From a virus, in IMG/VR virus record IMGVR_UViG_3300025154_001352, positions 1 to 42,928 of that record: a stretch of DNA of 42,928 nt. One strand, given 5' to 3'. Below are positions 856 to 42,928 of this stretch, in pieces (within the stretch, counting starts at the first letter, position 1; each line of letters starts with the position of its first letter). The notes under the pieces are model-generated. The model did no database searches and was not told the DNA's origin. It was given only the letters and a program-made list of their open reading frames with translations. The translations under genes were made by a program, and so were the position numbers.

Positions 856-1453
856 TTTTAAATATTCTTAAAGTAGTAGCAGGACTTAATTCCATGGCTA
901 TTTTCTCCTCTAGTTGAACCATTCCTAATTTCTCGAATACTTCCTTGTAATTTCTGGGAAATTTATATTTAGCGGGGTCTGACTCGACTTCTGCTATAAA
1001 GATATAGGTTTTAGCAATTTTAACCATTTTCTCAAATATCCAATCACTATCGTAATGAATATGCATCAATACTCCCGAAGTAAACACAACATCGTATTCT
1101 TCTTTGTTTTTAGTTAACCAGTCCTCAATCGTTGATATTTCAATCAAGTTACTTATATCTTCACCGTAATTTTCTCTTGAGAATTGGGGGGCATTTTCAT
1201 TTATTTCGACTCCCTTAAGATTTTTAAATCCATACTTCTTCAAATAACATAAATTTCTTCCTACAGAACATCCTAACTCCAAAATAGAATCGCTTTTTTT
1301 TGCATACTTCTTGAAAACCCTAAGCCACATTTTGCTAATGGGTTTCAGTTTTAAGTAAAACTCCTGTCTGCAAATGTCTACAAACCTTTTATAATCTGGA
1401 TTGACCTCAATATCTGGGTTTCTCCAAAACTTGTGAATATAATCTCTATCCAT
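839..1453 (-). CDS. SAM-dependent methyltransferase
   Basis: A 204-residue class I methyltransferase. Motif I is ELGCSVGRN (about residues 58-66), the acidic ribose-binding residue is in GVEIN, and the post-motif stretch VVFTSGVLMHIH is typical of Methyltransf_11/25 enzymes. About 50 residues precede motif I and may form a cap over the substrate. It overlaps the upstream glycosyltransferase by 8 bases and is translationally coupled to it. A sugar or lipid-linked glycan substrate is inferred from context only. Confidence 0.75.
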   Translation of the reverse strand: MDRDYIHKFWRNPDIEVNPDYKRFVDICRQEFYLKLKPISKMWLRVFKKYAKKSDSILELGCSVGRNLCYLKKYGFKNLKGVEINENAPQFSRENYGEDISNLIEISTIEDWLTKNKEEYDVVFTSGVLMHIHYDSDWIFEKMVKIAKTYIFIAEVESDPAKYKFPRNYKEVFEKLGMVQLEEKIAMELSPATTLRIFKNGKDT

Positions 1454-2342
1454 ATATAACTTCTAATTGTTTTCTCAGTGCTTCTTCGGGATTACCGCCA
1501 TCAAGATAGTCCTGAACAAAACACCTTCTAAGCTCCTTCATACTTTCAGGGTGTTCCAGCTCATAATCAATAACTTCAAGCAATTTCTTCGGTCTTACCA
1601 ATTTACAGGCATAGGATACTTGTGAATAAAAATCTTCTTTTGAATATATCTTGCCTAGCAATTCTTTAGGCTTCCACAAGTCAACTGAAATATAGGGAAT
1701 GTCCATCCAATAAGCAAGCGCCGCAAATGTTCCTTCACCAATTCCAACAACAACGTCAGCGTGTTTTAAAGCCTCATAACACAGCTTTATGTGATTGCTC
1801 TTGTCCCGCTCCGACATTATTGGGTTCGGATATTCAAAAGGATCGTGTTCCCCCAATATTATTTTTGAATAAACATAAGCCTTGTCATAAGTTTTTAACA
1901 TTTTGGCAACCTCCATATTTTCAGGAATGTCGTTGACCCAATGTCTAGGAGCAAATAAAACCCTTTTTCCTTTGTGTGGCACTCTTGGACCCAAACTGCC
2001 AAAAATTGTTGACCCCGTGATTTGTACCTTATCTTCGGGGATATTTGCATCCAACAGCCAGTCTTTTGTTTCTTGTCCCCAAGCCATAAATACATCACCA
2101 ATTAAAGGTTTGGAAAGCGGTGGGATATAGTCGTTAATTGAAAGAAGCCCGTGTTCGGCAACTATTACCCTTTTCCCCATTTCTTTTGCCTGCCGGCACA
2201 TTGTTGACAAAACACCTACGGCATCCTGCCAGACAACTAAAGTGTCGGATTGTTGCCAATCACCTACATAGTCCCCGCGATCACGAATAGCTTTATACAG
2301 GTCGTCTAGTATGTTGTTGAAATTGTATAAAGCGACCTTCAT
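1446..2342 (-). CDS. GT-B fold glycosyltransferase or glycerophosphotransferase-like protein
   Basis: A 298-residue protein with two Rossmann-like halves. The C-terminal half has VVVGIGEGTFAALA followed by IPYISVD, the pattern seen where GT-B enzymes (CDP-glycerol glycerophosphotransferase-like and UDP-GlcNAc 2-epimerase-like) bind the nucleotide sugar. The N-terminal half has HGLLSIND, again as in CDP-glycerol transferase-like proteins. The start overlaps the preceding formyltransferase stop as ATGA. It probably adds a sugar or sugar-phosphate unit in the pathway encoded by its neighbours; the exact donor cannot be read from sequence. Confidence 0.6.
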   Translation of the reverse strand: MKVALYNFNNILDDLYKAIRDRGDYVGDWQQSDTLVVWQDAVGVLSTMCRQAKEMGKRVIVAEHGLLSINDYIPPLSKPLIGDVFMAWGQETKDWLLDANIPEDKVQITGSTIFGSLGPRVPHKGKRVLFAPRHWVNDIPENMEVAKMLKTYDKAYVYSKIILGEHDPFEYPNPIMSERDKSNHIKLCYEALKHADVVVGIGEGTFAALAYWMDIPYISVDLWKPKELLGKIYSKEDFYSQVSYACKLVRPKKLLEVIDYELEHPESMKELRRCFVQDYLDGGNPEEALRKQLEVIYG

Positions 2343-3127
2343 ATAAATTGCCTCCTCAGTTTCGGTTCCTTGGGTGTTATCCTTTTGTCGAGGTATTGAT
2401 CCACTAAATCGTTGTTGAAAGTCTGGTAAATTACTCTTAGATGTTTTGGTTGAAAATCACTCTCTAAAAAGTTCTTACCAGCCTCAGGTTTTTGCTTGAA
2501 TAATTCCCACTTATCCATTTTAAATAAAGCCAGAGCCTCCTTAGTTGATTTTAAGACGGCTTTGCAGGCTACATCGTGTATCCCATCACCTTTTTCCAAT
2601 TCCGGTACTACTTGGTGAATAATATCTCCTGCATCCGGTGAATGTTGTATAAAGTGGAAGGTTGTTCCCGCCCAGTTCGGTTCCATAAAATAGAATGGCC
2701 AGAATAAGGTTGCAGCACCCCTGTATCTTGGTGATAACCCTAAATGTAGGTTAATTGTCTTTTCGGGAAGTGCTGAAAGTAACGGTTCCCGTATCATTCC
2801 CGTACCGAAAATTATTGCCATATCTGGTTTTAAATCTTTTACGAATTTAACCGCATCGTCATCGTTTAAAGTAGCTTTGTCCAAAGTAAGAAGTGGAATA
2901 TCGGGAGGTTCCTGTTTACCGAAGTATTTTATTTCAGCGTCTTTTCGTTCTTCAAAGTGCTGTCGCCAGTTCGCTGAATCAATAGGTGATAATCCTTCAG
3001 GCTCTTTAATGGAATCACCTCTTAACTGCATAATCCCCCCTACCATAGGAAAAGTGTCTGCTATCTTATTGGCGTAATATAGGTGTCTTGGCTGGTTTCC
3101 CCCCAACCACAGTATTCTCTCACTCAT
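2339..3127 (-). CDS. Formyltransferase (FMT-like; likely sugar N-formyltransferase)
   Basis: A 262-residue protein with the 10-formyl-THF formyltransferase core. The N-H-D catalytic set is visible: NLHLGLSPRYRG (Asn and His, about residues 126-137) and HSPDAGDI (Asp, about 163-170). The family includes methionyl-tRNA formyltransferase and sugar N-formyltransferases that act on 4-amino-4,6-dideoxy sugars. Because it follows a PseB-like dehydratase with an ATGA overlap and precedes glycosyltransferases, the sugar enzyme is more likely. No aminotransferase is encoded here, so the amino sugar would have to come from the host. Confidence 0.75.
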   Translation of the reverse strand: MSERILWLGGNQPRHLYYANKIADTFPMVGGIMQLRGDSIKEPEGLSPIDSANWRQHFEERKDAEIKYFGKQEPPDIPLLTLDKATLNDDDAVKFVKDLKPDMAIIFGTGMIREPLLSALPEKTINLHLGLSPRYRGAATLFWPFYFMEPNWAGTTFHFIQHSPDAGDIIHQVVPELEKGDGIHDVACKAVLKSTKEALALFKMDKWELFKQKPEAGKNFLESDFQPKHLRVIYQTFNNDLVDQYLDKRITPKEPKLRRQFI

Positions 3128-4017
3128 ATAAGTTTTAAAAATTCTTCTTTAGTAAGTCTTTTGGCGTTTTCAGAGGTGTATTCAAATATCCTGTCCGAAT
3201 AAGTAATACCAAATAGTTCAGGTTCAATTACATAGTGGTCGTCATATTCTTTTGTATGAATAGACTCGTCCTTGTTTATAAGTGCTTCGTGCAACTTTTC
3301 CCCTGGTCTCATTCCTGTAACTGTAAGTTTTGTGTCAGGTGCAAGTGCTTTGAACATATTAACAACACTCATGGAAGGAATTTTGGGTATAAACACTTCC
3401 CCACCCTTCATTTTATCTAGTGCCAGGAATATAAGGTTGCAAGCCTGATCTAAGGTTATCCAGAAGCGTGTCATTCTGTTGTCTGTTATGGTCAACTTCT
3501 TTGGCTTGTCTATTAAAATAGTTTCTATTACCGACCCCCTTGAACCAATGACATTTCCATACCTTACACAAGAAAAAGTAGTTTGGCTCTGCTGATTGGC
3601 TGAAATAAACAACTTCTCTGCGACCATTTTTGTAGCTCCGTATAAAGTAGTGGGGTGTGACCCCTTGTCGGTTGAGATTAAGATACATTTTTTAACATTG
3701 TTCACTTTACAGGCGTGTATGACATTTGTCGTTCCAAATACATTCGTCATTATCGTTTCTTCAGGCTGTTCCTCACCCACAGGGACGTGCTTCAACGCCG
3801 CCGTGTGAATAACAACATCAATATCCTTAAAAGCCTTTATTGTACTTATGGGGTCTCTCACATCTCCGACAATGTAACGTGCTTTGACTTCTCTTAGCAT
3901 CTTTCTTTGCTTGTACTCATCTCGGCTAAAGATGGTTACATTCTCACCCTCCTTAATAAGTTTTTTGGCAAGATGTGTACCAAGCGATCCTGTCCCACCG
4001 GTAATTAAGTAGTTCAC
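3124..4017 (-). CDS. NDP-sugar 4,6-dehydratase of the PseB/CapD type
   Basis: An extended short-chain dehydrogenase of 297 residues. It has the NAD-binding ITGGTGSLG at the N-terminus, STDKGS, the catalytic YGATK (YxxxK) and RYGNVIGSRGSV, the signature of inverting UDP-GlcNAc 4,6-dehydratases. It would make a 4-keto-6-deoxy sugar from UDP-GlcNAc or a related donor. The start is taken as the GTG at 4017, which overlaps the upstream stop as GTGA and follows a GGGGAGGG ribosome-binding site; a longer in-frame start at 4062 has no support. At under 300 residues it is slightly shorter than typical PseB. Confidence 0.85.
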   Translation of the reverse strand: MNYLITGGTGSLGTHLAKKLIKEGENVTIFSRDEYKQRKMLREVKARYIVGDVRDPISTIKAFKDIDVVIHTAALKHVPVGEEQPEETIMTNVFGTTNVIHACKVNNVKKCILISTDKGSHPTTLYGATKMVAEKLFISANQQSQTTFSCVRYGNVIGSRGSVIETILIDKPKKLTITDNRMTRFWITLDQACNLIFLALDKMKGGEVFIPKIPSMSVVNMFKALAPDTKLTVTGMRPGEKLHEALINKDESIHTKEYDDHYVIEPELFGITYSDRIFEYTSENAKRLTKEEFLKLI

Positions 4018-4178
4018 GCTATTCCCTCCCCGTGATATTCTTCTTTTTTCTTTAAAGGACACTTCTTTATTGTCCCCGCAAATAACTCTGATGACTGCAT
4101 AACTAACTTTTTCTCCACAACGTCTGCTCTAATTTGTTCACACTTTGTGTTTTTACAGTCTTTGCAAGTTTCTTTCAT
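4014..4178 (-). CDS. Small cysteine-rich protein
   Basis: A 54-residue protein starting with a CxxCxxxxC cluster (CKDCKNTKC) and a fourth cysteine near residue 40, so it may bind a metal ion. The ATG at 4178 overlaps the stop of the upstream gene as ATGA, which decides the start over a GTG at 4199. Its end overlaps the GTG of the dehydratase gene, making it a coupled member of the glycan operon. No family was recognised. Confidence 0.6.
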   Translation of the reverse strand: MKETCKDCKNTKCEQIRADVVEKKLVMQSSELFAGTIKKCPLKKKEEYHGEGIA

Positions 4179-6370: not shown

Positions 6371-8299
6371 TCACTGTTGACCGCCCGACTGAACGATCTG
6401 ATCCCTATAAACCATAATTGCCTGTAATAATTGTTTTGGTAACGACTTGGCTTCGGGTGAAGATATGAAGGCATCAATGTATTGTAAGAATTCCTGTGAT
6501 GGGTTTTGGGGAGGTTGAGGCTTGCCACCGTTGACTATTTGACGGATAGCCGCTATCGCTTCTACTTTGCCTTCTTGGGCTTGCGCAGGTTGAGCCGATG
6601 CTTGAGCTTGAGCATTGGCTTGTGTTTGTGCGGCACCTATTTCAATTTGTTCTGCCGCTCTTAATCGTCTTTCTTCTTTACTTTTCTTGATAATGTTTGA
6701 TATTGATCCGATAGAATAACCTTCCAAAAGTGTTTCCTGGTCGATGGCTTGAAGTTGATACAATTCTTTTAAAACAACCCTTCTTGCTTCGGCTGTTTGT
6801 GCGATCCAAGAAGTTATCTTTACATCTACTGCATTTTTCGCTGAAATAACAGTCGCACCTTCCGGGGCTCTTTCTCCTGCTTCTTCACCTATTACATCCA
6901 AAAAGACCTTTTCACCCGTTGCAGTGGTAGGAATTATCCTTCTGACAACCTGATATTTACTTGCCGCTATCGCTAAGATATGTTCATACACTTCTTCTAG
7001 GAATTCCTCAACATTTTCTATAACTTCGGATAAGTTGTTTGAATCGCCCACCTGTAAGGCTTCGATAGCATCACCCGACTTGGCGCTTGTCGGTATTCGT
7101 CCAAGTGACGCATCGTGTGCTCCACCCAAGTCCTCTATGTACCTATTAACATTTTCTATTTGTTGGAAGATAGCAGCCGACATTGGAGCAATGGGCTGTT
7201 GGTTGACTTCAAATCCCCGTTTCTTTTCTATGATTTGTCCGTTTTCGTTATTAATTACCCTTACTCCCGATCCTTTGTCTGCAACCCACTTACCCCTATT
7301 CATCAAATCGTTATATTCGGCTACTTGGCTTTCAAGCCTATCTAATAATCTATTAGGGGATATTAAATTTTTAACCCAACCAGTACCGTACATACTTAGG
7401 GGTTCAACATCACTTTGAAGTCTAAAGAATGGAAATCTTGTAAGTCCGGTATCTTCAGGTTGTCTTATTATCTTATCTCCCGCCATAGCTGCTATCATTA
7501 TCTTTGCTTTCTTGATCTTGGTTGGCTTTCCGTCTGGTCCTTCTACTTCTTCATCAACAAATTCTTTGTACCAATGTTCTTTAACAATAACTGTGGAATT
7601 AGACCGTTCTTCACCGAAAGTCCGCATACCCTTTTCAGCCTGCATAAGTCTTGCTTTCAAAGATGAAGCCGACAGAAGTTCATCACCCTTCATATCCTTG
7701 ATGTCATATTTGGGGTCGTTCTTTAAATCTTCTACATTTCTTCTTACTGCTAAAATTACATGTCTTGCTTCATTTGGATCACGTGCTACGGGATCCCAAT
7801 AAAGATCATAAGTATCAACCATATTGACAGCTATTTCACCCAATCCATCTTCCGCCTGGTCGTCCCACAACACTTGCCAAAAACCAGCCGAATATTTTAA
7901 AGCGTTCCATACAACAGCCTTCAGCTTTCTTCTGAGAAATAGTTTGTCGTGAAGGTAGTCTAAGTATCTATTTAGCTTATTCACTTCTTCAACGTTTTCT
8001 TCGGTTAAATTAAAAGGTGTTACTTCAGCTCGTGGTTTGTTTCTAAGTGAGAAGTTTCTTACAGCCCGTAAAGTAGAATAAATTTTATTAATTACAACTT
8101 TTACTTTACCCTTATCCCTTACATTGGTGACTATTTGTTGCGTGTTATTGTCCCATTTAGCATAGTGGTTACCCGATACCCACAAATCATACATAAACCA
8201 TTGCCAATCCACCTCCTTGCGGTTTGATTCGGCAACGGACCACTCACGCTGTAATTTGGCTCGTATAACTTCTATATCTTCAGTCTTCTTCTTTGCCAT
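6371..8299 (-). CDS. Portal protein, P22-like
   Basis: A 642-residue protein forming the dodecameric ring at the capsid vertex through which DNA enters. Family-like stretches are an early WVSGNHYAKWD, NALKYSAGFWQVLWDD, MVDTYDLYWDP and the long helix region before DLGGAHDASLG (about residues 385-400). The C-terminus has an Ala/Gln-rich low-complexity segment (about 545-565). It overlaps the upstream small membrane protein gene by 20 bases. Size and order (TerL, two small genes, portal, scaffold, capsid) fit short-tailed phages. Confidence 0.85.
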   Translation of the reverse strand: MAKKKTEDIEVIRAKLQREWSVAESNRKEVDWQWFMYDLWVSGNHYAKWDNNTQQIVTNVRDKGKVKVVINKIYSTLRAVRNFSLRNKPRAEVTPFNLTEENVEEVNKLNRYLDYLHDKLFLRRKLKAVVWNALKYSAGFWQVLWDDQAEDGLGEIAVNMVDTYDLYWDPVARDPNEARHVILAVRRNVEDLKNDPKYDIKDMKGDELLSASSLKARLMQAEKGMRTFGEERSNSTVIVKEHWYKEFVDEEVEGPDGKPTKIKKAKIMIAAMAGDKIIRQPEDTGLTRFPFFRLQSDVEPLSMYGTGWVKNLISPNRLLDRLESQVAEYNDLMNRGKWVADKGSGVRVINNENGQIIEKKRGFEVNQQPIAPMSAAIFQQIENVNRYIEDLGGAHDASLGRIPTSAKSGDAIEALQVGDSNNLSEVIENVEEFLEEVYEHILAIAASKYQVVRRIIPTTATGEKVFLDVIGEEAGERAPEGATVISAKNAVDVKITSWIAQTAEARRVVLKELYQLQAIDQETLLEGYSIGSISNIIKKSKEERRLRAAEQIEIGAAQTQANAQAQASAQPAQAQEGKVEAIAAIRQIVNGGKPQPPQNPSQEFLQYIDAFISSPEAKSLPKQLLQAIMVYRDQIVQSGGQQ

Positions 8300-10738: not shown

Positions 10739-11578
10739 TCAAACTGTTATAACCTCTGTGTATAACAAAGGAAGCACATCTTTTCTTGACCTAATTTTAG
10801 TTCCATGATTGTGATGCGTTCTTGCATCGAAATCAATTAACATAGTTCCGTTTTCAAAGGTCTCTATCAACCTGTCTTGGTTGAGGCTCATTAGTACCAT
10901 AATCCGGTCATAGAAGAAGTACTCAATTCCATTCTCAATTTTTGATTGGGCTTTAATATAAAAACAATTCTTTAGTTTTATTCCCACTGCATGAAAGATA
11001 TCGTCAAATCCCCAATAAGGTTGCGGATTGAGTTCACCTAAGTCAACTCTTCTTCTGACAGATTCAAGCCACTCTGAATGTCTAGGGTTAACTTGGGTAT
11101 AGTCAAACGATACTTCTATTCTTCTTTTTTCTCTATTTACAGAAATACCAAAACCTCTATCTGTCCGATTGCAGCAGTTGATTGTCTGTCTAAAACTCAT
11201 TTCACCTGCCGGATACTTTTTTCCTGCTTCCTTATGAGGCCATCCGTATTTAGGAAGAAGTATTTTTGATACGAATTTAAAAGCTGTTGGAGACGGTTCT
11301 ATGTGTAAACCGGTTGTGAGGGATCCGCTTTTACCTCTTTGTGCCTTTAGTTCCCATTCTGCTGCATTGGGAATAGGAAGGTTATTCTCCTCAATTCCCA
11401 ATAAATCTTCTAATGTATTTCCTACGGCTCCTGCGTTTCCCGGTCTTCCGCTTTTAATCCATCCCATTGCTCTGATTTCTTTTAGTGATTCAATTAGGCT
11501 TTCTTTAGTGTAAACTTTCATCGGTTGTCCTTTTTCTGAGTCACTGGTTGGGATCGGGAACATTTCCAATTGTGTCAT
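10739..11578 (-). CDS. Type II restriction endonuclease, MvaI/BcnI-like
   Basis: A 279-residue protein that matches the MvaI/BcnI endonuclease family: WIKSGRPGNAGAVGNTLEDLLG near the N-terminus and the PD-(D/E)XK catalytic E-x-K in EWELKA (about residues 74-79), then GISVN and a C-terminal DNA-contacting half. Known members cut CCWGG or CCSGG as monomers; the target here is not known. It lies 41 bases downstream of a DNA methyltransferase, forming an apparent complete restriction-modification pair placed between the early genes and the terminase. No nonsense or frameshift mutation is visible. Confidence 0.8.
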   Translation of the reverse strand: MTQLEMFPIPTSDSEKGQPMKVYTKESLIESLKEIRAMGWIKSGRPGNAGAVGNTLEDLLGIEENNLPIPNAAEWELKAQRGKSGSLTTGLHIEPSPTAFKFVSKILLPKYGWPHKEAGKKYPAGEMSFRQTINCCNRTDRGFGISVNREKRRIEVSFDYTQVNPRHSEWLESVRRRVDLGELNPQPYWGFDDIFHAVGIKLKNCFYIKAQSKIENGIEYFFYDRIMVLMSLNQDRLIETFENGTMLIDFDARTHHNHGTKIRSRKDVLPLLYTEVITV

Positions 11579-11619: not shown

Positions 11620-12522
11620 TCAGTTAGCATCTTCTCCATTAGAGGGTGGTCTCCAGAAATCCAAAAGATATTCAAATGTAACGCCCATCGTGATGTAGTT
11701 ACTCGGCCACCCAAAGATGCCGATCCTGTTCACAATGTTCGTTCTATCCCAGATAATGATGTTCCTGAGTTCATAACCCCGTTTGCGCAGTTCTTCGATC
11801 AAAGCTACGTGGATAGTTATTCTTTGGTTTTCCCACCACATATCAGGCACATTAATTACACAGTGAGCTTTCGGTTTTAAAAGAGGAAGTATCCTCTCAA
11901 AAATGTCCCCCATTTCCTTTGTATAAATATCAAGCGGCATTGTACCCAGGTCTCTCGGGTCCTGGGAGTACTGCTCCACTTTCATATACTGGTCGTTTTT
12001 TCTTGTATCACCCCTCCTTGACTTGTTTTTTCTTTTTCGATTGAGCAAATTAGCATAGGGAGGGGAAGTCCAAATAAGACTTACGGTTTCATTTTCTAAG
12101 TAATTAGGAATATTTAGAGCATCATCAACCACGACCATTTGTTTAGTTTTGTTGAACAGCGTATCACTCGCCAGCCTTGTTCTGCACAAACTGGCATATT
12201 CTTCTTTCAAGTCAAAGCCTATGGCATTTCGGTCCAAATCACGGGCTGCAACGAGTGTAGTCCCACTTCCGACAAAAGGATCCAGCACAAGCTCACCCTG
12301 ATGGGAAAATAGCGAAATTACCTTTTTTGCAAGCGAAATCGGAAACGTTGCTGGATGAAGGGTTCTGTCTCTGATATCCCGTGATTCATAGTTGAACTGC
12401 CATACACCTAATTGGTTCTTGATCCACTCTTTAGCGGTTAAACAATTAATATGTGTCGGAGCACATTCGCAAGTTCGGGTAAAACCTATATCAAGTTTTT
12501 TGGAGATAACCGGGGATTCCAA
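11620..12522 (-). CDS. DNA methyltransferase (amino-methylating, TSPPY motif)
   Basis: A 300-residue enzyme. SAM-binding motif LDPFVGSGTT (about residues 80-89) comes before the catalytic TSPPY (about 151-155), with the motif X-like HPATFP segment ahead of them, so the order is X-I-IV. SPPY is typical of N4-cytosine, and sometimes N6-adenine, methylation. MvaI-family partner enzymes are N4-cytosine methylases, which fits the adjacent endonuclease. The start is a TTG at 12522 with a strong GAGGTGA ribosome-binding site. It would protect the phage genome and cleave-sensitive host sites from its neighbour. Confidence 0.85.
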   Translation of the reverse strand: MESPVISKKLDIGFTRTCECAPTHINCLTAKEWIKNQLGVWQFNYESRDIRDRTLHPATFPISLAKKVISLFSHQGELVLDPFVGSGTTLVAARDLDRNAIGFDLKEEYASLCRTRLASDTLFNKTKQMVVVDDALNIPNYLENETVSLIWTSPPYANLLNRKRKNKSRRGDTRKNDQYMKVEQYSQDPRDLGTMPLDIYTKEMGDIFERILPLLKPKAHCVINVPDMWWENQRITIHVALIEELRKRGYELRNIIIWDRTNIVNRIGIFGWPSNYITMGVTFEYLLDFWRPPSNGEDAN

Positions 12523-12557: not shown

Positions 12558-13304
12558 CTACTTATTGTCTTCAGCCTTCGGTTCTTGCTCTTTTACTTTC
12601 TGGTTTTGTATCTTCTCAAAAAGGTTATTACACTTAGTACAGACTGCGTGGAATTCTTTAGCACCTATCCTTGCATTTTGGCACCCACAGCTCCATCTTG
12701 ATAAACTTGATCTTCCTTTTATTTCTTTACCATTTTTGAACCAGTCTATTTTTCTATCATCATAAGGGACATCATCAGGTCTTTCTATTCCCCATTCTTT
12801 CATTAAAATTGAAAAAGGTTCATCTGCAACTGCCATATGACAACCAAATCCCGGTAACGGATGAAGCCCCATACTTTCCATCTTTTCAGTGAACTCTTTA
12901 CCGTGACCAGGCTTGCCTATATTTAATTGTTGTTGCCATAAATGGATGTATTCGTGGGTTAGAGTTTCAAGTTGAGCCCATCTGCCCCAGCGCCATTCTT
13001 TTTTACCGTCTTTTTCAATGTAGTGCTCAGCGTTGAAGTTTATCCTGCAAGAAAGTCCTACTGCATCTCTTACAAGTAAGTATTCTGCTAAGACTTTATA
13101 ATTTCTTAAGTTTTCAAAACCTATTACCGGATCAGGAACTTGCCCTCTGTCTATTCTTGCTATCGGATCGATTAGCCTGTCTCTTAATTGAACCCCTTTT
13201 AAATAAAGATATTGGGCTTCGTCTTTAAACTCCCAGTCGACAGCTTTTTCAGCATTTTTCCTGACTTCTGGCTGTGGGTTGTGAACTTCAATCAATCGCT
13301 CCAT
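12558..13304 (-). CDS. SprT-like zinc metalloprotease
   Basis: A 248-residue protein with the zinc-protease motif HEYIHLWQ (HExxH, about residues 116-120) followed by GKPGHGKEF with the third ligand His, as in SprT/Spartan-like proteins. A C-terminal zinc ribbon is visible: CGC and CTKC (about residues 205-225). SprT/Spartan proteins digest DNA-protein crosslinks; phage members have no settled role. The gene overlaps its upstream neighbour by 17 bases and lies 35 bases before the methyltransferase. Confidence 0.75.
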   Translation of the reverse strand: MERLIEVHNPQPEVRKNAEKAVDWEFKDEAQYLYLKGVQLRDRLIDPIARIDRGQVPDPVIGFENLRNYKVLAEYLLVRDAVGLSCRINFNAEHYIEKDGKKEWRWGRWAQLETLTHEYIHLWQQQLNIGKPGHGKEFTEKMESMGLHPLPGFGCHMAVADEPFSILMKEWGIERPDDVPYDDRKIDWFKNGKEIKGRSSLSRWSCGCQNARIGAKEFHAVCTKCNNLFEKIQNQKVKEQEPKAEDNK

Positions 13305-18721: not shown

Positions 18722-19807
18722 GTGGCACATAGAAGAAGCAAAGGTGAGGGGAGTATCAGTCAGACAACTAGAGGTTGGCTGGCACAAATCACCCTGCCTG
18801 ATGGTAAGAGGCGCAGTAAGAACTTTAAAGACCAGAAAAGTGCAAGAGAGTGGCTACTCCTTGTAAGGAAAGAGCTTTCGGATGGTGCGGTAGTAGATAA
18901 AGATATCCGCTTAGATAAATTCTTAGAGTTGTATATCAGAGATGTCGCCACCCACAATTTGCGGGAAAAAACCCTTCAAGCCTATGAGTCGCTAATAAGA
19001 ATTCACATCAAGCCCGAGCTGGGGTACTATAAACTCTCCCAGCTATCCCCCCCTATAATTCAGAAATTCTATTCTAAGAAGTTAGAAACATTGTCTAAGA
19101 GAACAGTGCAGTTTATCCATTCCATCTTACATAAGGCTCTTGACCAGGCTTTGAGATGGAATATGGTGATTAGAAATGTCTGCGACCTTGTAGATGCTCC
19201 CAGCCCCAAAAGAAGTGTTATGAATGTCTGGTCACCAGAACAAGCAAGACTTTTTTTGAAGTTTGTTGAGAATGACCGCTTTTATCCTTTGTATGCTCTA
19301 GCGATCGGAACCGGTATGCGGGAAGGTGAACTGCTGGGTATTTACTGGGAAGATGTCGACTTTATTAAAAGCGAAATTAGTGTTCAGCGTGCCCTTCAGT
19401 ATTTAGTTGGAAAAGGCCTTGTACTTACTGAGCCAAAAACTGATAAATCAAGAAGGTCTGTATCTGTTGCTAAGTTTGCGATGGATGCGCTTAGAAACCA
19501 CTTTGACGCTTCACCAAATAAACTAGGACTGGTGTTTGTTACCAAAAACAATACACCATTCAGTCCACGAAATATTGTCAGGCATTTTAAACTAAAAACT
19601 AAGGAAGCGGGTTTGCCGGAGATCCGCTTCCACGACCTAAGACACACCGCAGCTACATTAATGTTATCAGGAGGTATCCATCCGAAAGTCGTCCAGGAAA
19701 TGCTGGGGCATAGTCAAATTAGTCTGACCCTTGATACATATTCTCACGTTGTACCTTCGCTTCAGAAAGAAGCTGCTGAAAAGATAAACGACTTAATGCA
19801 TATTTAA
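18722..19807 (+). CDS. int: Tyrosine recombinase (integrase)
   Basis: A 361-residue phage integrase. It has an N-terminal arm-binding domain (GEGSISQ, then GWLAQI, then KSAREWL; about residues 7-50), a core-binding SAM-like domain (about 60-140) and a catalytic domain with the full set: Arg in GTGMREGELLG (about 200), HDLRH (about 304-308), LGHSQ (about 327-331) and the nucleophile Tyr in TLDTYSHV (about 337). The start is a GTG because the preceding ATG runs into a stop. Its last codons contain paired TTAATGC sites, and a tRNA-Lys lies 170 bases downstream, the usual setting of attP. Confidence 0.92.
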   Translation: MAHRRSKGEGSISQTTRGWLAQITLPDGKRRSKNFKDQKSAREWLLLVRKELSDGAVVDKDIRLDKFLELYIRDVATHNLREKTLQAYESLIRIHIKPELGYYKLSQLSPPIIQKFYSKKLETLSKRTVQFIHSILHKALDQALRWNMVIRNVCDLVDAPSPKRSVMNVWSPEQARLFLKFVENDRFYPLYALAIGTGMREGELLGIYWEDVDFIKSEISVQRALQYLVGKGLVLTEPKTDKSRRSVSVAKFAMDALRNHFDASPNKLGLVFVTKNNTPFSPRNIVRHFKLKTKEAGLPEIRFHDLRHTAATLMLSGGIHPKVVQEMLGHSQISLTLDTYSHVVPSLQKEAAEKINDLMHI

Positions 19808-19976: not shown

Positions 19977-20049
19977 GGCTCCCTAGCTCAATTGGCAGAG
20001 CAAGGCACTCTTAATGCTTAGGTTCTGGGTTCGAGTCCCAGGGGAGTCA
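19977..20049 (+). tRNA. tRNA-Lys (anticodon CTT)
   Basis: A full cloverleaf: acceptor GGCTCCC/GGGAGTC, D arm GCTC/GAGC with a GG in the loop, anticodon stem AGGCA/TGCTT with loop CTCTTAA (anticodon CTT, Lys AAG), variable loop AGGTT, T arm CTGGG/CCCAG with loop TTCGAGT, discriminator A. The CCA end is not encoded. It is complete and appears functional. It may supply a phage tRNA or, since it lies next to the integrase, preserve the host tRNA gene upon integration. Confidence 0.92.
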
Positions 20050-20062
20050 CAATCTTAATTGC

Positions 20063-21884: not shown

Positions 21885-22073
21885 TTAGTTCTCCTTATTT
21901 TTCTTGATCCAATTTACCAGATCGGTTTCCATTATCCGGACATTCCGCTGTATTCGGATGTGGGGTATCTTCTTTTTCGCCACAAGGTAGTAAATCTTGC
22001 TCTTTGAAATATGAAGGTACTCTGCGACTTCGGGTATGGTTAGAAAAGAGCAAGATTTACTACCTTGTGCCAT
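21885..22073 (-). CDS. Excisionase-like helix-turn-helix protein (HTH_17/MerR type)
   Basis: A 62-residue winged-helix DNA-binding protein with the standard pattern LTIPEVAEYLHISKSKIYYLVAKKKIPHIRI, then DLVNWI. Proteins of this family act as excisionase, directing the integrase to excision, or as small regulators. The first ten residues (MAQGSKSCSF) are an unusual extension: their DNA is the exact reverse complement of the helix-coding DNA further on. The stop codon of the upstream gene falls within that segment. Confidence 0.75.
   Translation of the reverse strand: MAQGSKSCSFLTIPEVAEYLHISKSKIYYLVAKKKIPHIRIQRNVRIMETDLVNWIKKNKEN
21981..22069. repeat. Perfect 25-bp inverted repeat in the excisionase-like gene
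   Basis: Bases 21981-22005 are the exact reverse complement of 22045-22069, with a 39-base spacer. Both arms are coding in the same gene: one gives codons 2-10, the other the recognition-helix region. In mRNA the arms would form a very stable hairpin that covers the region right after the start codon and the stop codon of the upstream gene. Confidence 0.93.
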
Positions 22074-22320
22074 TGTCCTCTCCTTTCAAAAACTCAATTA
22101 ATTTAGTCTGTTGTATAAATAGCCACTTTCCTTTCATCGGTCCTGTCAGCTCCATATATTCCGTAAGGGTCAAGGTCGGTAATTTTTCAAGAGGTCTTGT
22201 CATATCAGGTTCAAAGTCGTGGTAATTCTTTTTAATTGCGCAATTTTCAAGACACACTTCATTCATCCGGTTACGGCATATTCCACAAGCTCTGGATGGT
22301 GGTAAATAAATTTCTTTCAT
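22060..22320 (-). CDS. Small cysteine-rich protein
   Basis: An 86-residue protein with CGICRNRMNEVCLENC in the first 30 residues, a likely zinc- or metal-binding cluster, and an acidic/helical C-terminus. A GGAG ribosome-binding site is next to the 22330-22361 hairpin, so its translation may depend on that structure. It overlaps the excisionase-like gene by 14 bases. Confidence 0.5.
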   Translation of the reverse strand: MKEIYLPPSRACGICRNRMNEVCLENCAIKKNYHDFEPDMTRPLEKLPTLTLTEYMELTGPMKGKWLFIQQTKLIEFLKGEDNGTR

Positions 22321-22329
22321 AGTTCACTC

Positions 22330-22376
22330 CACGGTCAGACCAAGAAGGTTGGCTGACCGTGTACGAATTACTTCGT
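22330..22376 (-). promoter_or_regulatory. Strong hairpin in front of the 22060-22320 gene
   Basis: CACGGTCAG (22330-22338) pairs with CTGACCGTG (22353-22361), and CCAA/TTGG extends it inward. A second hairpin ACGAA/TTCGT (22363-22376) abuts it. No T-tract follows on the minus strand; instead the ribosome-binding site GGAG is directly adjacent, so a translational or mRNA-stability role is more likely than termination. Confidence 0.5.
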
Positions 22377-22535
22377 GTACAGTTGCCTCAACCTTTTGTA
22401 GTGATCGATCCAAATTTCCGATCCGCAATTAGGACATTCATACACATCCCAATCCACACCTTTTTCTCGGTGCTTCATCAGCTCGGATAATTTAGTCCGA
22501 CATACAGGGCAAGGTCTGTAAGCCTTATCGTACAT
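22368..22535 (-). CDS. 55-residue zinc-ribbon protein
   Basis: Starts MYDKAYRPCPVC; CPVC and CPNC knuckles (about residues 9-12 and 34-37) make a complete zinc ribbon. The ATG at 22535 follows a very strong GGGAGGGGGTGAG ribosome-binding site, which decides the start. It lies between two hairpin-rich gaps. A nucleic-acid or ATPase-partner function is possible. Confidence 0.6.
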   Translation of the reverse strand: MYDKAYRPCPVCRTKLSELMKHREKGVDWDVYECPNCGSEIWIDHYKRLRQLYTK

Positions 22536-22562
22536 AGTCTCACCCCCTCCCTGGTCTGACCT

Positions 22563-22609
22563 CTTCAACAGATCAAGTCTGCTGAAGTGCTTAAACGGAT
22601 CTAGTCCGT
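22563..22609 (-). other. Two hairpins after the ATPase gene
   Basis: CTTCAACAGA pairs with TCTGCTGAAG (22563-22572/22578-22587) with one wobble pair, and ACGGA pairs with TCCGT (22595-22599/22605-22609). Neither is followed by a T-tract. They fill the 84-base gap between the ATPase stop and the ribosome-binding site of the zinc-ribbon gene. Confidence 0.45.
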
Positions 22610-22619
22610 AGAAGCTATG

Positions 22620-24101
22620 TTAAAGTCCTGGCGGTTTTTTCTGCGCTGTTTTTTGCGTCCCGCCCAATGTACGGTTATTAATTACCTCCAGCGCATCCCG
22701 CACTCTTACACCCCGTCTTTCAATTAAATATTGTTTGGCACTCTCGACACTCATATGTAATTGACCGTGCGGAGTTTCATAAGTCTTTCTTACAAACTGT
22801 ATTTTCTTCTGCTTCTTGCGTTCGCTTTCATACCGTCTTATCAAACACTGCCGGTGTTCAAGCGAACTGATCCAGTCCGCATATTCTAAGTATTGTTCAT
22901 TTGCACTTTCCATCATCGGATGTTGTCCTTCTCTGGTCGGCGCAATTTTTACAAAGTACGGATCGAACGGAAAAAACTGCTGTGCAACTTCAAACGCTTC
23001 TGCGTGGTTTGAAAGTTTAAAACATACAATATTTCCTAAGCTCCAAAAGTGCGGTCGAAGATCTTTACTCAATTGTTCAAGTTCCTGAAGGACAATATAG
23101 AGCTGTAACTTTCGTGAACGGTACTGCGGTGAAAGGCTCGCAATTTCAGGTGCCATCCCAGGAACTCTCAGAAGCGAATAGACTTCATCCAGTACCAGTG
23201 ATACGGGATGGTCTAAGGGGTTACTCGGTCGCCTCTTATTAATTTCTTCCAGGATCAGCGAGTATGCCTGCATAAATAAATAATTCTGCGTCATCTCCTG
23301 GTTTATTAGTCTTGCTCCATCGCAAATTACCAACTGTCCTTTTTCGATGGCTTCTTTCGCTGTCCATCCCGGGCGGTAATATCCAAGCCTGGCTCTTACA
23401 GCTCGAGGTTCGATAGCGTTAAGCGTTCCGATCAGTGCTGTAGTCTTGCGGGTCTTTTCGGATTCGGGAGCCTTCTGAAAACCATTTTCAAGCCAGTATT
23501 TCGCATCAGGCACCCGATCACCAAATCTTTCACACGCTGCTTTTAAAAGCTGTTCGTTATAGACAAGCTTTTTCGTTTCCGTGATCTGCCAGCTCTCACC
23601 GTGTTCGTTTTCAATAGCGGTCAGAAGTTTAAAGAAATTCACCGCAACAGAAATTCCCAGTTCACCAATGATCGGCGCTCTTTCCAGTTCGGGGTTTATG
23701 CGTTTCAAATTCTGCGCAACTCTCTGCACCTGATCTTCATAGTATCCGTACTCTTTTGAAAACTCAGGTAGGGGAGTCGCCCATTCAGGATTTCCCATAT
23801 CATCGTATACAACTCTCTCCAAAAGCCTTTCATAATTTTTGTCCTGAAGGATGAGGTTAAAGAGTGCATCAGTTAAGGATCCGCTCCAGTCCAAAACAAA
23901 GATCGATTCTTTCGGATGGCGCACAAAGCAGTCGAATGTGTGTCCAGCCAGATGCTCAGTCTTACCTGTTCCTGATTCTCCGATAATGCCTGTCCCTTTT
24001 GTTCGGGCATCATCGTAAAGATAGTCCATTGAAAGATCAACAAACGGATCAGGTGACGGTTTTCTTATAACGTTCCAAAAGCTATATAAGTCTATGCTCA
24101 T
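22620..24101 (-). CDS. TraG/VirD4-HerA-like DNA-translocating ATPase
   Basis: A 493-residue P-loop ATPase. Walker A is GESGTGKTEH (about residues 41-50), Walker B is VSLVLDEVYSLL (about 305-316), and LYIVLQELEQL after it matches the conserved Gln motif of VirD4/TraG coupling proteins and HerA/FtsK relatives. No membrane span is found at the N-terminus, unlike most VirD4 proteins. The ATG at 24101 overlaps the stop of the upstream gene as ATGA. It is unusual for a short-tailed phage: packaging is already covered by TerL, so it may act in DNA transfer, segregation or replication with its neighbours. Confidence 0.75.
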   Translation of the reverse strand: MSIDLYSFWNVIRKPSPDPFVDLSMDYLYDDARTKGTGIIGESGTGKTEHLAGHTFDCFVRHPKESIFVLDWSGSLTDALFNLILQDKNYERLLERVVYDDMGNPEWATPLPEFSKEYGYYEDQVQRVAQNLKRINPELERAPIIGELGISVAVNFFKLLTAIENEHGESWQITETKKLVYNEQLLKAACERFGDRVPDAKYWLENGFQKAPESEKTRKTTALIGTLNAIEPRAVRARLGYYRPGWTAKEAIEKGQLVICDGARLINQEMTQNYLFMQAYSLILEEINKRRPSNPLDHPVSLVLDEVYSLLRVPGMAPEIASLSPQYRSRKLQLYIVLQELEQLSKDLRPHFWSLGNIVCFKLSNHAEAFEVAQQFFPFDPYFVKIAPTREGQHPMMESANEQYLEYADWISSLEHRQCLIRRYESERKKQKKIQFVRKTYETPHGQLHMSVESAKQYLIERRGVRVRDALEVINNRTLGGTQKTAQKKPPGL

Positions 24102-24751
24102 TTTTTTAAAGGATAGCGTTTGCCATCCCCCCACATATAGATGGATGAACTGAATTGTTGTCCGAATGGAACTTTAGTAAAACTTTCGTAGTCCACTAAA
24201 AAGTATGGGTCATCAAATGGATTTCGTTTCACGAAGTTATCTACTCTTTCGCTGGAAACATCCAGCACAAAAAGTACAACCACTTCGGAAGCATCGAAAT
24301 GCTCTATTATCTTGGTAAGGTTCTGGCGGTAATTGGTCATCTTGGTCTTGATGATCCTTGCGCCTTCAAAATTGTTTTGTGTAGAAAATTCCACCAGAAG
24401 GAGTTTCTCGTTGTATCGGATGCCCCAGTCTGGTACTGATCCAAAGCCTTTGAAAAGTCTCTCGGGTATAAAGTCGCCATCATTATCGCTTCGGCAAATT
24501 CTTACAATGGTTTCGGTCACTCCCAGCCCGTGAAGTATGGGGATGTTTTTCTTACTCTTTGTTGCGTAGACAAATTTCTTGCCGTATTGTTGGCTGACCA
24601 ATCGCCCATATCTCACAAGCCTGGGGAGCAGCTGTTCCGTCCGTCTGTGGCGCTCCAGCTTGCCTGTGAACCACAATTTATAGTGATCCTGGGTCGCCCA
24701 GTCGAACATCATACTTACCCGTTGATACTCTTCTTTTCCTATTGTGCGCAT
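24098..24751 (-). CDS. Replication-relaxation-like protein
   Basis: A 217-residue protein. The N-terminal part (about residues 30-75) looks like a winged helix (RRTEQLLPRLVRYGRLV), followed by a nuclease-like core with VPDWGIRY and LLLVEFSTQ, i.e. a PD-(D/E)xK-like layout with Lys not evident. This matches the pattern of Replic_Relax proteins, which in conjugative elements are often encoded next to TraG/VirD4 ATPases, exactly as here (ATGA overlap). A role in initiating or regulating replication or transfer is plausible; nuclease activity is uncertain. Confidence 0.55.
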   Translation of the reverse strand: MRTIGKEEYQRVSMMFDWATQDHYKLWFTGKLERHRRTEQLLPRLVRYGRLVSQQYGKKFVYATKSKKNIPILHGLGVTETIVRICRSDNDGDFIPERLFKGFGSVPDWGIRYNEKLLLVEFSTQNNFEGARIIKTKMTNYRQNLTKIIEHFDASEVVVLFVLDVSSERVDNFVKRNPFDDPYFLVDYESFTKVPFGQQFSSSIYMWGDGKRYPLKK

Positions 24752-24770
24752 CGTATTTAACCCATTTGGG

Positions 24771-24841
24771 TAGTGGAGTAAATTAGAAGGTGGATTTTTA
24801 CTCCACTATTTCAGGATACACCCTCGTCAGGATAGTTTCAA
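24771..24841 (-). promoter_or_regulatory. Promoter with downstream 12-bp operator-like inverted repeat
   Basis: TTGAAA (24836-24841) and TATCCT (24813-24818) are spaced 17 bases on the minus strand. Right after the -10 comes a perfect inverted repeat TAGTGGAGTAAA/TTTACTCCACTA (24771-24782/24797-24808) that would overlap the transcription start, so a dimeric repressor could control the relaxation-ATPase operon. Confidence 0.55.
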
Positions 24842-24842
24842 A

Positions 24843-25136
24843 TTACTGCGAGAGGTTTCCGTAAGCTATCATCACGGAAACAAAGACTATATACAAGCTA
24901 GCCCAGCTCATCCACAAAATGACTTTGATCCGCTCGATCTTGTAGACTTCGGGATCATTCCATCCCACAAGGCGGATAGTGTTGCTGAGTGCTAGGCGGT
25001 GAATGGTTTTCCCCGGTCCCACAAAGATAGCGACCGGCACCATCGCCATATACTTGAGGCTGTTGATGAAGAAAAAGAACAGCCATATCCAAGACTTGAT
25101 CAGCAGGTAGTCCAGAATTCCGAATAAGCAACCCAT
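24843..25136 (-). CDS. Small membrane protein
   Basis: A 97-residue protein with hydrophobic segments at about residues 13-30, 30-43 and 72-90, and a short polar loop with KTIHRLALSN. ATG 25136 follows GGGAGAGAATGAA; a longer frame to 25163 is less likely. It is divergent from the LuxR-like gene. It could be the membrane partner of the ATPase, but this is inference from location. Confidence 0.55.
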   Translation of the reverse strand: MGCLFGILDYLLIKSWIWLFFFFINSLKYMAMVPVAIFVGPGKTIHRLALSNTIRLVGWNDPEVYKIERIKVILWMSWASLYIVFVSVMIAYGNLSQ

Positions 25137-25182: not shown

Positions 25183-25253
25183 TAGTTTAGCGATATTGAG
25201 AATATTCACAAGCAAAAAGACTCTAAGATGCCTCGAGGAAGCCTCTAAACTTT

Positions 25254-25709
25254 ATGTCCCCCAAGAAGAAGAAAAAATGGTTCAATTTAGGACCAGCTCC
25301 GAAAAGGAAAAAGCCCTTTATGATGTCGGAGCTTCAAGAAAAATTAATCTTGAATTTAACTGAAATTGAGTTTTGGATAGCTTTTTCGATAGTTTCAGGT
25401 GCGGGCACCAAAGAGACTGCAGACAAATTAAATTACAGTGAAGCCAATGTCCGTTACTATCTCACCAAGATATTTAATAAATTATTAATTCCTGAAGATG
25501 TTGAAGGTGGGAAAAGAGAGCATATGACGATTGTTTATCAACATATAATTCGCGCATATGGAAATGAATTGATATACAGCGACCCCAAAAGGAGATGGGT
25601 AAGAAAACCCTTTACCGCAGGTGATATACCAACCAAAGATAAAGAAGTTTTCAAATTCTTTTACCGATTAATATTTAAGAGGGAACCCCCGCCAGAGTCT
25701 ATCCCTTAA
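25254..25709 (+). CDS. LuxR/GerE-type helix-turn-helix protein
   Basis: A 151-residue protein on the plus strand, opposite to almost all other genes. Residues about 32-85 (LTEIEFWIAFSIVSGAGTKETADKLNYSEANVRYYLTKIFNKL) match the GerE four-helix DNA-binding fold. The N-terminus is Lys-rich and there is no sensing domain; a C-terminal extension of 60 residues is unknown. It lies between the lysis genes and the ATPase operon and overlaps the convergent 65-residue gene by 11 bases. It may be the main transcriptional switch, since no CI-type repressor is evident. Confidence 0.65.
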   Translation: MSPKKKKKWFNLGPAPKRKKPFMMSELQEKLILNLTEIEFWIAFSIVSGAGTKETADKLNYSEANVRYYLTKIFNKLLIPEDVEGGKREHMTIVYQHIIRAYGNELIYSDPKRRWVRKPFTAGDIPTKDKEVFKFFYRLIFKREPPPESIP

Positions 25710-40332: not shown

Positions 40333-40937
40333 TTTTCTGCTTCTACAATTATTTGATCGTTTCTAAATACTGCATTCTTTGTCAACGGTACGAGCCATTT
40401 TACTTCAGCCACTTTTGCACCTTTCCTTGCAATATACACTGAACCCTTAAAGCCTACCGCCGTTAAGATAAAGTTGATAAATTCAGGTGTTATCGGGCAT
40501 TTGTGCATCTCTCCATCCGCCAACTGATTACCATAAATTACTTCAGCTAAATCCAAAAATTCTTCAGGGTTAAATGGCGGATTGGAAACCATATACAACC
40601 ACTCAGACACAACCCCATTAAAAGAAGGAGCCGAGATATAAAGTTTTGCACCCTTTTTCATTACCCGATGAACCTCTTTCATATAGGTTACGATCTGCTT
40701 TACGGGAAAATGCTCGATCACTTGGTTCATCTCCACATAATCAGCATAATTGTCTGGAAACGGTAATTTGCCTATATCTGCTTGTACAAATTCAGCGTCT
40801 TTTTCCACCTTAGCATTTTTGAAAGCACCACTTTTACTTCTTAGTTGTTCTTCGGTGTAGTATTTATCCACGTTGATAAAGCCGGATTTTAACCAGAGTC
40901 CGCACCCAAGATTCAACTTTTTAATTTTTTTCGTCAT
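40329..40937 (-). CDS. SAM-dependent methyltransferase
   Basis: A 202-residue class I enzyme. Motif I NLGCGLW is at residues 8-14, FINVDKYY carries the acidic residue, and YVEMNQVIEHF (about 87-97) is the Methyltransf_11 signature. It overlaps the upstream methyltransferase by 17 bases. The likely substrate is a sugar, as it is followed by a glycosyltransferase. Confidence 0.8.
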   Translation of the reverse strand: MTKKIKKLNLGCGLWLKSGFINVDKYYTEEQLRSKSGAFKNAKVEKDAEFVQADIGKLPFPDNYADYVEMNQVIEHFPVKQIVTYMKEVHRVMKKGAKLYISAPSFNGVVSEWLYMVSNPPFNPEEFLDLAEVIYGNQLADGEMHKCPITPEFINFILTAVGFKGSVYIARKGAKVAEVKWLVPLTKNAVFRNDQIIVEAEK

Positions 40938-41505
40938 GTTCAGGTCTTAAAATAGTCAAGGTTCTGTTTCTGGTAAGTTCAATTTCGTGAAAACTCCTGT
41001 CGTCTTTCCGCTTTTCAAGTAATACTTCCATATTGCCTTGGCTGTACCACGAATTTTCTAAAATCCTCCAAGGTTTTGGTCTGTAATTCTTATACAACAT
41101 TCCGCCTGTCATTTCATCTGCTGGATCAAAGTAACTCCAAGTCAACTCATTACACGGATTGCAGTGTGTCGGATCTTGAACATAAGCTGCCGATTGTCCA
41201 TAAGGTGTTGCGATCATAAACTGTCCACCGACCTTCAATATTCTCCACGCCTCATCCATGAAACGAATGAAATTTCCACCGTGGGGATCAATGTGTTCAA
41301 CTAATTGTGAAGCAATAATTAAGTCAGCACATTCGTCTGGGAATGACCATGGATATTTCTCCAAATCACAAACAACATCGATCCCAGGCTTCTCTACTAC
41401 GTCTACATTTATGAAACCAGTTATTAGATTTTCCCCCGCACCCAAATTAATGTTTACGTGAGATTTTAATTTCAGTAACAGTTTTACCTTTTCTTGTTCG
41501 GTCAT
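40921..41505 (-). CDS. SAM-dependent methyltransferase
   Basis: A 194-residue class I enzyme: motif I INLGAGENLI (about residues 18-27), FINVDVV, and DLIIASQLVEHIDPHGG (about 60-76). It is similar in layout to the next methyltransferase, so they may be an old duplication. The start follows a 72-base gap containing a pseudoknot. Confidence 0.8.
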   Translation of the reverse strand: MTEQEKVKLLLKLKSHVNINLGAGENLITGFINVDVVEKPGIDVVCDLEKYPWSFPDECADLIIASQLVEHIDPHGGNFIRFMDEAWRILKVGGQFMIATPYGQSAAYVQDPTHCNPCNELTWSYFDPADEMTGGMLYKNYRPKPWRILENSWYSQGNMEVLLEKRKDDRSFHEIELTRNRTLTILRPEHDEKN

Positions 41506-42169: not shown

Positions 42170-42928
42170 TTTAAGACGGTCTCCCTATAAGCATCAACCC
42201 ATTTGTCAGCCCATGCTTTTGCGTCTCTGTTGGCAATTACATAACTGTAAGCATTTCCCCCGATCTCCTGACGTTTGTCAGGCATTAGAAGAAGTGTTTT
42301 AAGTGCGTCATGGAATTCTTTTTCAGTTCTATAACGCATCGAGTTGCTGTCGTTTATATCCTCGGAATACGGAAGAATGTTTTTGACTACCGAAGGCACG
42401 CCCATAGCTGACATTTCATACCACTTGATAGAGCTTTTATATTGGTTAAATTTCATATCGCTTAAAGGAATTATTGCTATATCTAAAGCCATACACATAC
42501 TTCTGAATGAATGTCCCTCAAACGGAATCCAGGAATGGCTTTCAAGCAAATGTTTGTTATCTTCATCAATTATTCCGGGGAATCCGTGTCCAAAGTACAC
42601 AAATTTGAATTGGAATTCCCGCATAAGTTTATTTAAAGGCTCTTTGATCGAATACAGGTCTTCATAGTGACTGCTTCCCCCAGACCAACCGACCCTAAGT
42701 TGCCGGTTCGGAATTAAGTTTAACTTCCACCAATTTTCAAAGTTTATGCAGTTTGGTAGTACGGCTACATTTTTATTGTACTGGCTTGCGTATTCTTTTA
42801 GATTCTTAGTTGTTACAGTAACCAAGTTTGCGTTCTTTAAACCCCATATATGATCTGCTAATCGTTTCTTATTCTTCTCGATACTAAATCCCGCCACTCC
42901 ATCTTTCCATAAATCCTTGCCTTCGTGT
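42166..42928 (-). CDS. Glycosyltransferase (GT4-like), C-terminal part
   Basis: This part joins the segment at 1-442 across the circular closure. It has the GT4 fold: LRVGWSGGSSHYEDL (start of the donor-binding domain), FVYFGHGFPG, and YKSSIKWYEMSAMGVPSVV, the conserved E(x)7E-like region with a nucleotide-sugar-binding role. It ends with a C-terminal helix typical of GT-B enzymes. The stop codon lies in the -35 box of the next promoter. Confidence 0.85.
   Translation of the reverse strand, partial: HEGKDLWKDGVAGFSIEKNKKRLADHIWGLKNANLVTVTTKNLKEYASQYNKNVAVLPNCINFENWWKLNLIPNRQLRVGWSGGSSHYEDLYSIKEPLNKLMREFQFKFVYFGHGFPGIIDEDNKHLLESHSWIPFEGHSFRSMCMALDIAIIPLSDMKFNQYKSSIKWYEMSAMGVPSVVKNILPYSEDINDSNSMRYRTEKEFHDALKTLLLMPDKRQEIGGNAYSYVIANRDAKAWADKWVDAYRETVLN
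42831..42928. repeat. Terminal redundancy, right copy
   Basis: An identical copy of bases 1-98 in direct orientation; see the left copy. All genes in the copy belong to the glycosyltransferase that crosses the join. Confidence 0.93.

Follow-up and report, generated by a model that had tools for sequence, protein, structure and literature searches.

A conserved phage gene cassette combining a VirD4/TrwB-type ATPase with a predicted winged-helix PD-(D/E)XK-like protein

The IMG/VR virus record IMGVR_UViG_3300025154_001352, analyzed here over its whole length of 42,928 bases (the window), carries a tight cluster of minus-strand genes for a small membrane protein, a 217-aa nuclease-like protein and a VirD4/TrwB-type ATPase, and this trio recurs, its order unchanged, in each of the eight distinct phage lineages that we identified. 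We have fair confidence, because of the predicted folds, that the biochemistry of this cassette is that of a nuclease combined with a membrane-associated DNA pump; the purpose of the cassette does not follow from the folds. Our tentative interpretation is that the cassette processes the DNA of a temperate phage in the manner of a relaxosome, with mobilization as the preferred, weakly held purpose.

Results

The phage genome

An exact 98-bp repeat is present at both termini of the record (1-98 and 42831-42928), and therefore the genome is complete, a circular assembly of about 42.83 kb. The phage gene content described in an earlier note on this DNA was recovered: the window encodes a major head protein, a portal protein and a large terminase, as well as additional virion proteins and an endolysin. 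The tyrosine integrase (18722..19807, plus strand; phrog_1, E 1.6e-73), also recognized earlier, lies beside a complete tRNA-Lys(CTT) gene (19977..20050, plus strand; ARAGORN and Rfam), the probable attachment site of the phage; the Rfam scan gave no match besides the tRNA. At this probable site the phage genome holds the whole tRNA gene, beyond its 3' end alone. The top genome match of the integrase comes from Kroppenstedtia (44%), which merely hints at a host among Bacillota. The earlier suggestion of a phage-plasmid is not favored, because the integrase adjoins the tRNA-Lys gene and no partition (par) or replicon (rep) gene was found among the window proteins scanned.

Several other genes of the window were annotated in passing. 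A complete-looking type II restriction-modification pair, an MvaI/BcnI-family restriction endonuclease (10739-11578; PF15515, E 4e-56) and an N6/N4 DNA methylase (11620-12522; PF01555, E 2.3e-29), is flanked by the terminase and early genes. It is followed by the gene for a SprT-like protein (12558-13304; PF10263, E 6.5e-7), which is kept in all seven cassette-bearing relatives with 33-55% identity. Methyltransferase, nucleotide-sugar epimerase-like and formyltransferase-like genes are situated between head and tail genes (424-4062 and 40921-41505), perhaps for a change of surface glycans.

Layout of the cassette

The order of transcription is the 97-aa membrane protein (24843..25136, with the ATG at 25136), the 217-aa protein (24098..24751), the ATPase, a small Zn-ribbon protein (22368..22568), an 86-aa Cys-rich conserved protein (22060..22320) and an HTH_17 excisionase-like protein (21885..22073; PF12728, E 1e-14; phrog_66 excisionase, 4e-9), all on the minus strand. 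Homologs of the Zn-ribbon protein are likewise placed in L055 and L057, and the Cys-rich protein has homologs in L050, L057, L058 and L060. The ATPase ORF covers 22620-24134 if it starts from a GTG; the likely start, backed by the homologs, is the ATG at 24101. With this start the protein has 493 aa (22620..24101) and its gene shares an ATGA with the 217-aa gene, so the overlap of the two genes in the earlier note holds. The adjacent small membrane protein noted there does contain two hydrophobic stretches, predicted to form helices.

The cassette has the lysis genes on one side and the probable attachment site on the other. At its 3' side lie the tRNA gene and then the integrase, which reads toward the tRNA from the opposite side. 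The probable attachment site thus separates the cassette from the integrase, and therefore the two would be at opposite ends of the prophage, unlike in a typical mobilizable element. On the other side, a gene for a GerE/LuxR-type HTH protein of 151 aa (25254..25709, plus strand; PF00196, E 3.9e-6) is divergent from the cassette, and a palindrome (25196-25211) between this gene and the membrane-protein gene is a putative operator. The ATPase and 217-aa genes are GC-richer than the remaining genome, which had suggested recent gain of the cassette; this was rejected, since the pair is GC-richer in all eight phages.

The ATPase

The assignment of the ATPase to the VirD4/TraG-HerA type is supported by profile and structural comparisons. 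The NCBIfam model NF045973 (VirD4-like CD1115 equivalog) matched it with E 4.7e-9 and 35.6 bits, under the 250-bit curated cut-off, and matched six of the eight family members, while Pfam TraG-D_C gave weak matches to all eight. In a predicted structure of moderate confidence (AF2, pLDDT 73.7, pTM 0.76), a RecA-like nucleotide-binding domain carries an all-alpha insertion as in TrwB, and TrwB of R388 was the top Foldseek match in PDB (1e9r/1e9s; E 3.4e-8, probability 1.00, about 360 columns), followed by HerA and VirB4, with SIR2-HerA among the neighbors too. The Walker A and B motifs (GxxGxGKT and DEV) are conserved in all eight ATPases. When the family was aligned by hhalign with VirD4 proteins adjoining Replic_Relax proteins in Bacillota conjugative elements, the match reached 97.5% (E 6.6e-12, 309 columns), with a score of 99.9 versus at most 24.4 for shuffles. 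The same comparison with FtsK proteins of Bacillus phages gave 0.48%, i.e. nothing, and PF01580 (FtsK_SpoIIIE) was matched in just one family member (E 0.14).

Two other assignments were tried. VirB4 identity, suggested by a TIGR00929 match in two members, was rejected, as VirD4/TrwB is stronger both by structure and by the number of members matched. The PADLOC model mad8 matched the ATPase with E 2.9e-8, covering the shared ATPase core alone, and no other MADS component was present among the six proteins scanned; for lack of such partners, assignment to this defense system was not adopted.

A simple hydropathy scan of the relatives' seven ATPases detected no transmembrane stretch, and none was seen in the window ATPase. 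As judged from profiles and the model, the protein is a TrwB/VirD4-type coupling protein without its membrane anchor.

The 217-aa nuclease-like protein

The resemblance of the 217-aa protein to Replic_Relax, proposed in the earlier note, was borne out by profile-profile comparison and by the fold, but Pfam's own Replic_Relax model (PF13814) matched neither this protein nor its seven homologs. The best of five AF2 runs (pLDDT 91.9, pTM 0.88; 71-77 in the remaining runs) predicts an alpha/beta PD-(D/E)XK-like domain preceded by a winged helix. For the alpha/beta domain, Foldseek matches in PDB included PD-(D/E)XK enzymes (the nickase Nt.BspD6I, R.BspD6I2, McrC and cap-snatching endonucleases), with modest TM-scores of 0.2-0.4; the top viral structural neighbor covers the whole protein (TM 0.63).

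An hhalign comparison of the eight-member family profile with 16 Replic_Relax proteins yielded 94.4% (E 9.5e-8, 177 columns), the score of 56.7 exceeding those of 60 column shuffles (at most 17.1) and of decoy families (at most 29.9). The match is strong with the broad alignment only: smaller Replic_Relax subsets gave probabilities of 1-75%, and a narrow alignment, made of phage proteins, showed no significant link. Because of this drop, we consider homology of the two families likely rather than certain. One Replic_Relax protein in the matched alignment is 52-62% identical to the MobC region of CloDF13. In the CloDF13 record itself (NC_002119, about 6757-7513) the MobC frame appears broken, and the type given in a plasmid database is non-mobilizable.

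Replic_Relax proteins conserve H, PD, E and K, many of them have a Tyr four residues past the K, and most carry an acidic residue two positions after the catalytic Glu. In all eight members of the 217-aa family, H74, P107-[DE]108, E121, K/R137 and Y141 are kept and follow one another as in Replic_Relax; the second acid of the E-x-D/E motif is Ser or Cys in 8/8, and therefore nuclease activity is uncertain. MOBC relaxases such as TraX of pAD1 and MobC of CloDF13 belong to the PD-(D/E)XK superfamily, and the N-terminal domain of TraX is a winged HTH (PMC12857230). The predicted succession of a winged helix and a PD-(D/E)XK domain in the 217-aa protein corresponds to this layout.

Relatives and conservation of the trio

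When searched with single sequences, phages, plasmids, and viral and genome contigs produced no match for the ATPase or the 217-aa protein. The ATPase found nothing in 398 Bacillota genomes, and a repeat with the ATPase alignment found one marginal fragment only. The C-terminal part of the ATPase, used as a query, identified two phages, and an alignment-based scan identified more; after removal of near-duplicates, eight distinct lineages were retained (the window, L050, L051, L054, L055, L057, L058 and L060). As the collection scans were based on short peptide patterns, the family is under-sampled; the searches of genomes extended to about 400 sampled ones.

In this survey of gene neighborhoods, which the earlier note had proposed, the 217-aa homolog lies directly upstream of the ATPase in all eight lineages, the two genes overlapping or nearly so. 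Relative to the window proteins, identity is 30-49% for the 217-aa homologs and 37-52% for the ATPases. The preservation of the order, the (near-)overlap, the Walker motifs and most nuclease-type residues in eight lineages indicates that the pairing is more than chance. An HTH_17 excisionase-like gene follows the pair in five of the seven relatives (L050, L051, L054, L055 and L057), and six of the seven have an integrase homolog, one of these being just a fragment at a contig end. Terminase or tail genes are common to the window and several relative contigs, which shows that the relatives are phages, mostly distant ones. No ATPase was seen by single-sequence search in G005, a 38.6-kb relative by its head protein, so that carriage of the cassette across phages may be patchy.

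The membrane protein, the hairpin and the divergent regulator

A hydrophobic protein of similar size is encoded directly upstream of the 217-aa gene in 8/8 loci, the sequence alignment being weak, and the two-helix 97-aa protein may, as a separate component, anchor the ATPase to the membrane. A second membrane protein (134-178 aa) is encoded in most relatives and is absent from the window.

Just upstream of the start codon of the 217-aa gene, the window contains a perfect 12-bp inverted repeat (TAGTGGAGTAAA/TTTACTCCACTA; 24771..24808, minus strand), and all other phages have an inverted repeat at the matching place, with arms that differ yet pair. The repeat of L051 is imperfect and is not the minimum-energy fold, and that of L057 is short. 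When the upstream regions of other ORFs from these phages serve as the reference, with start codons picked by us from the alignment, the rough combined probability of the hairpin is 4e-4. The MAFFT alignment of these regions set the stems out of register, and therefore base pairs were checked by hand. The hairpin could be a nick or binding site, an operator or an RNA element.

Homologs of the divergent HTH protein in the relatives have 337-403 aa, with a transmembrane segment and an outer domain, and from these features look like a one-component membrane regulator. The 151-aa copy of the window is therefore one without the C-terminal part.

Discussion

A possible role in mobilization

Phages and conjugative elements are usually regarded as separate routes of gene transfer. 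In the preferred reading of the cassette, the winged helix of the 217-aa protein would bind DNA, the probable site being the hairpin that precedes the 217-aa gene or a position close to it, and the PD-(D/E)XK-type domain would cut or nick one strand. The ATPase would dock to the membrane via the separate two-helix protein, and its ring would pump the DNA so processed. Nicking by the 217-aa protein, the role of the hairpin as its target and that of the membrane protein as an anchor are inferences. The excised circular genome of the phage could thus be processed and offered to the type IV secretion system (T4SS) of another element, with CloDF13 and the VirD4-MobC-Xis-Int mobilizable elements as models.

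Mobilization is attractive because exactly such kinds of genes are present. We counted in its favor the ATPase class, the nuclease fold, the Replic_Relax profile match, the pairing in 8/8 lineages, the excisionase-like and integrase genes in most of them, and the hairpin upstream of the 217-aa gene in 8/8 (weak in two). Counted against it were the lack of any T4SS gene seen among the phage proteins scanned, the Ser/Cys at the second acid, a gene order reversed relative to Bacillota elements, the attachment site between the cassette and the integrase, the subset-dependence of the Replic_Relax match, the moderate confidence of the ATPase model, and the fact that phages already possess virions for transfer. 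The furthest version of this reading appears to us unlikely: complete temperate phages of one lineage would also be mobilizable by conjugation, each equipped with a MOBC-type relaxase, a split VirD4 coupling protein and an origin hairpin of its own, and the excised genome would exit via virions or via the secretion channel of another element.

A position beside lysis genes and an attachment site is classic for conversion genes, and that of the cassette fits exclusion of incoming DNA: the prophage would express a membrane-docked ATPase and a nuclease that intercept and cut phage or plasmid DNA entering the cell, with control by the divergent membrane HTH regulator, whose homologs have the transmembrane segment and outer domain. 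Pairs of a HerA-type ATPase and a nuclease or other effector are known in defense, SIR2-HerA is a structural neighbor of our ATPase, and there is the mad8 match. This match, however, is limited to the shared ATPase core, with no other component of the system in the scanned proteins, and TrwB is a clearly better structural match than SIR2-HerA. Moreover, the cassette keeps its excisionase-like and integrase neighbors in distant phages, whereas defense morons are usually often swapped. On balance we regard such a lysogenic-conversion role as conceivable but doubtful.

A function in replication or partition of the phage, with the nuclease as an initiator nicking the phage origin and the ATPase moving or segregating the circular genome, is possible because no known initiator or polymerase was recognized among the window proteins scanned, with part of the small ones classified. 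Against this role, ordinary early genes, ERF-like and replisome-organizer-like ORFs, appear by sequence to be carried by L050, L051 and L055, and VirD4-type ATPases are not known to act in replication. In its favor, annotators of Bacillus phages name the analogous protein a replication initiation protein, and such genes are tied to plasmid-type prophages in one paper (PMC9658697). However, a passage in another describes two near-identical Bacillus phages, one with and one without an FtsK/Replic_Relax cassette (PMC9476937), and therefore this cassette, at least, is dispensable. We consider a replication role improbable. Help with DNA entry, in which the ATPase would draw phage DNA into the cell at infection, is very improbable: this ATPase class pumps DNA at membranes, and such a role was proposed in a passage on SpoIIIE/FtsK of podophage Pony (PMC3853050), but the cassette is on the side of the integrase and excisionase-like genes, away from the virion genes, with no sign of the ATPase in the virion.

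To return to mobilization, the cassette hints that the phages harboring it may process or move DNA in a second, plasmid-like way. It allows the use of conjugation-type DNA processing by some phages to be tested directly, and is a compact system for asking about the role of the widespread, uncharacterized pairs of ATPase and Replic_Relax genes in phages. For structural work it supplies an unusual member of the PD-(D/E)XK group, together with a coupling protein that is soluble and apparently split.

Comparison with known systems

The mobilizable plasmid CloDF13 has a MobC relaxase and a MobB coupling protein. Like CloDF13 and the streptococcal IME class 8, the phage cassette combines a winged-helix nuclease of the Replic_Relax/MOBC superfamily type with a VirD4-class ATPase and, among the phage proteins scanned, shows no T4SS of its own; the IME class 8 also resembles the phage in having an excisionase and an integrase in one element. 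In the literature, PF13814 is treated as the MobC relaxase superfamily, and mobilizable elements with a compact VirD4-MobC-excisionase-integrase layout are described (PMC5357655). Unlike these systems, the phage has a far diverged 217-aa protein (no PF13814 match) with one acidic site residue replaced by Ser/Cys, an ATPase without a transmembrane domain, the relaxase-like gene ahead of the ATPase, a tyrosine rather than a serine integrase, and the attachment site between cassette and integrase, and its cassette is housed in complete phages. A literature search for phage-encoded relaxases gave nothing on point.

The pairing was described earlier as typical of conjugative elements, and in Bacillota Replic_Relax genes do often adjoin VirD4- or FtsK-type ATPases. 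The conjugative elements L102, L104 and L105 pair Replic_Relax with a VirD4 significantly related to the phage ATPase (the hhalign match given above); their VirD4 proteins are longer (830-1050 aa) and precede Replic_Relax, the reverse of the phage order, and at least in L105 a second, VirB4-like ATPase appears nearby, of which the phage has none. T4CPs without a transmembrane domain, possibly paired with a separate membrane protein, are a recognized class (PMC7431656). TraJ/TraI of pIP501 from the same source, likened by description, resemble the arrangement proposed here in that a soluble coupling protein is suggested to act together with a separate membrane protein, whereas pIP501 is a complete conjugation system whose relaxase is of the MOBQ type.

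Within phages, a comparable arrangement is known from 57 matching records of Bacillus, Geobacillus and Staphylococcus phages, in most of which an FtsK/SpoIIIE gene overlaps or precedes the Replic_Relax gene. These phages (Pony, Page, PM1, Finn and vB_BhaS-171) are of similar size and include podophages, and their ATPase and Replic_Relax genes likewise overlap or are adjacent; the pair adjoins lysis genes in several of them, with the integrase next in vB_BhaS-171. For such genes DNA injection (PMC3853050), plasmid prophage maintenance (PMC9658697) and prophage induction (PMC9476937) were suggested, in passages that report no experiment. The earlier proposal of a new DNA-handling system is therefore too strong, since an analogous pair is already annotated in dozens of phage records and PF13814 is treated as a MobC family (PMC5357655). 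The survey revealed neither a known phage family with a packaging or tail role for the ATPase nor a lack of any relation of the upstream protein to Replic_Relax. In the Bacillus-type pair the ATPase is FtsK-type, with no profile match to the present one, its gene comes first and no comparable membrane-protein gene was noted; the cassette described here is thus distinct from the known phage pair by its class of ATPase, by the order of its genes and by having a separate membrane protein.
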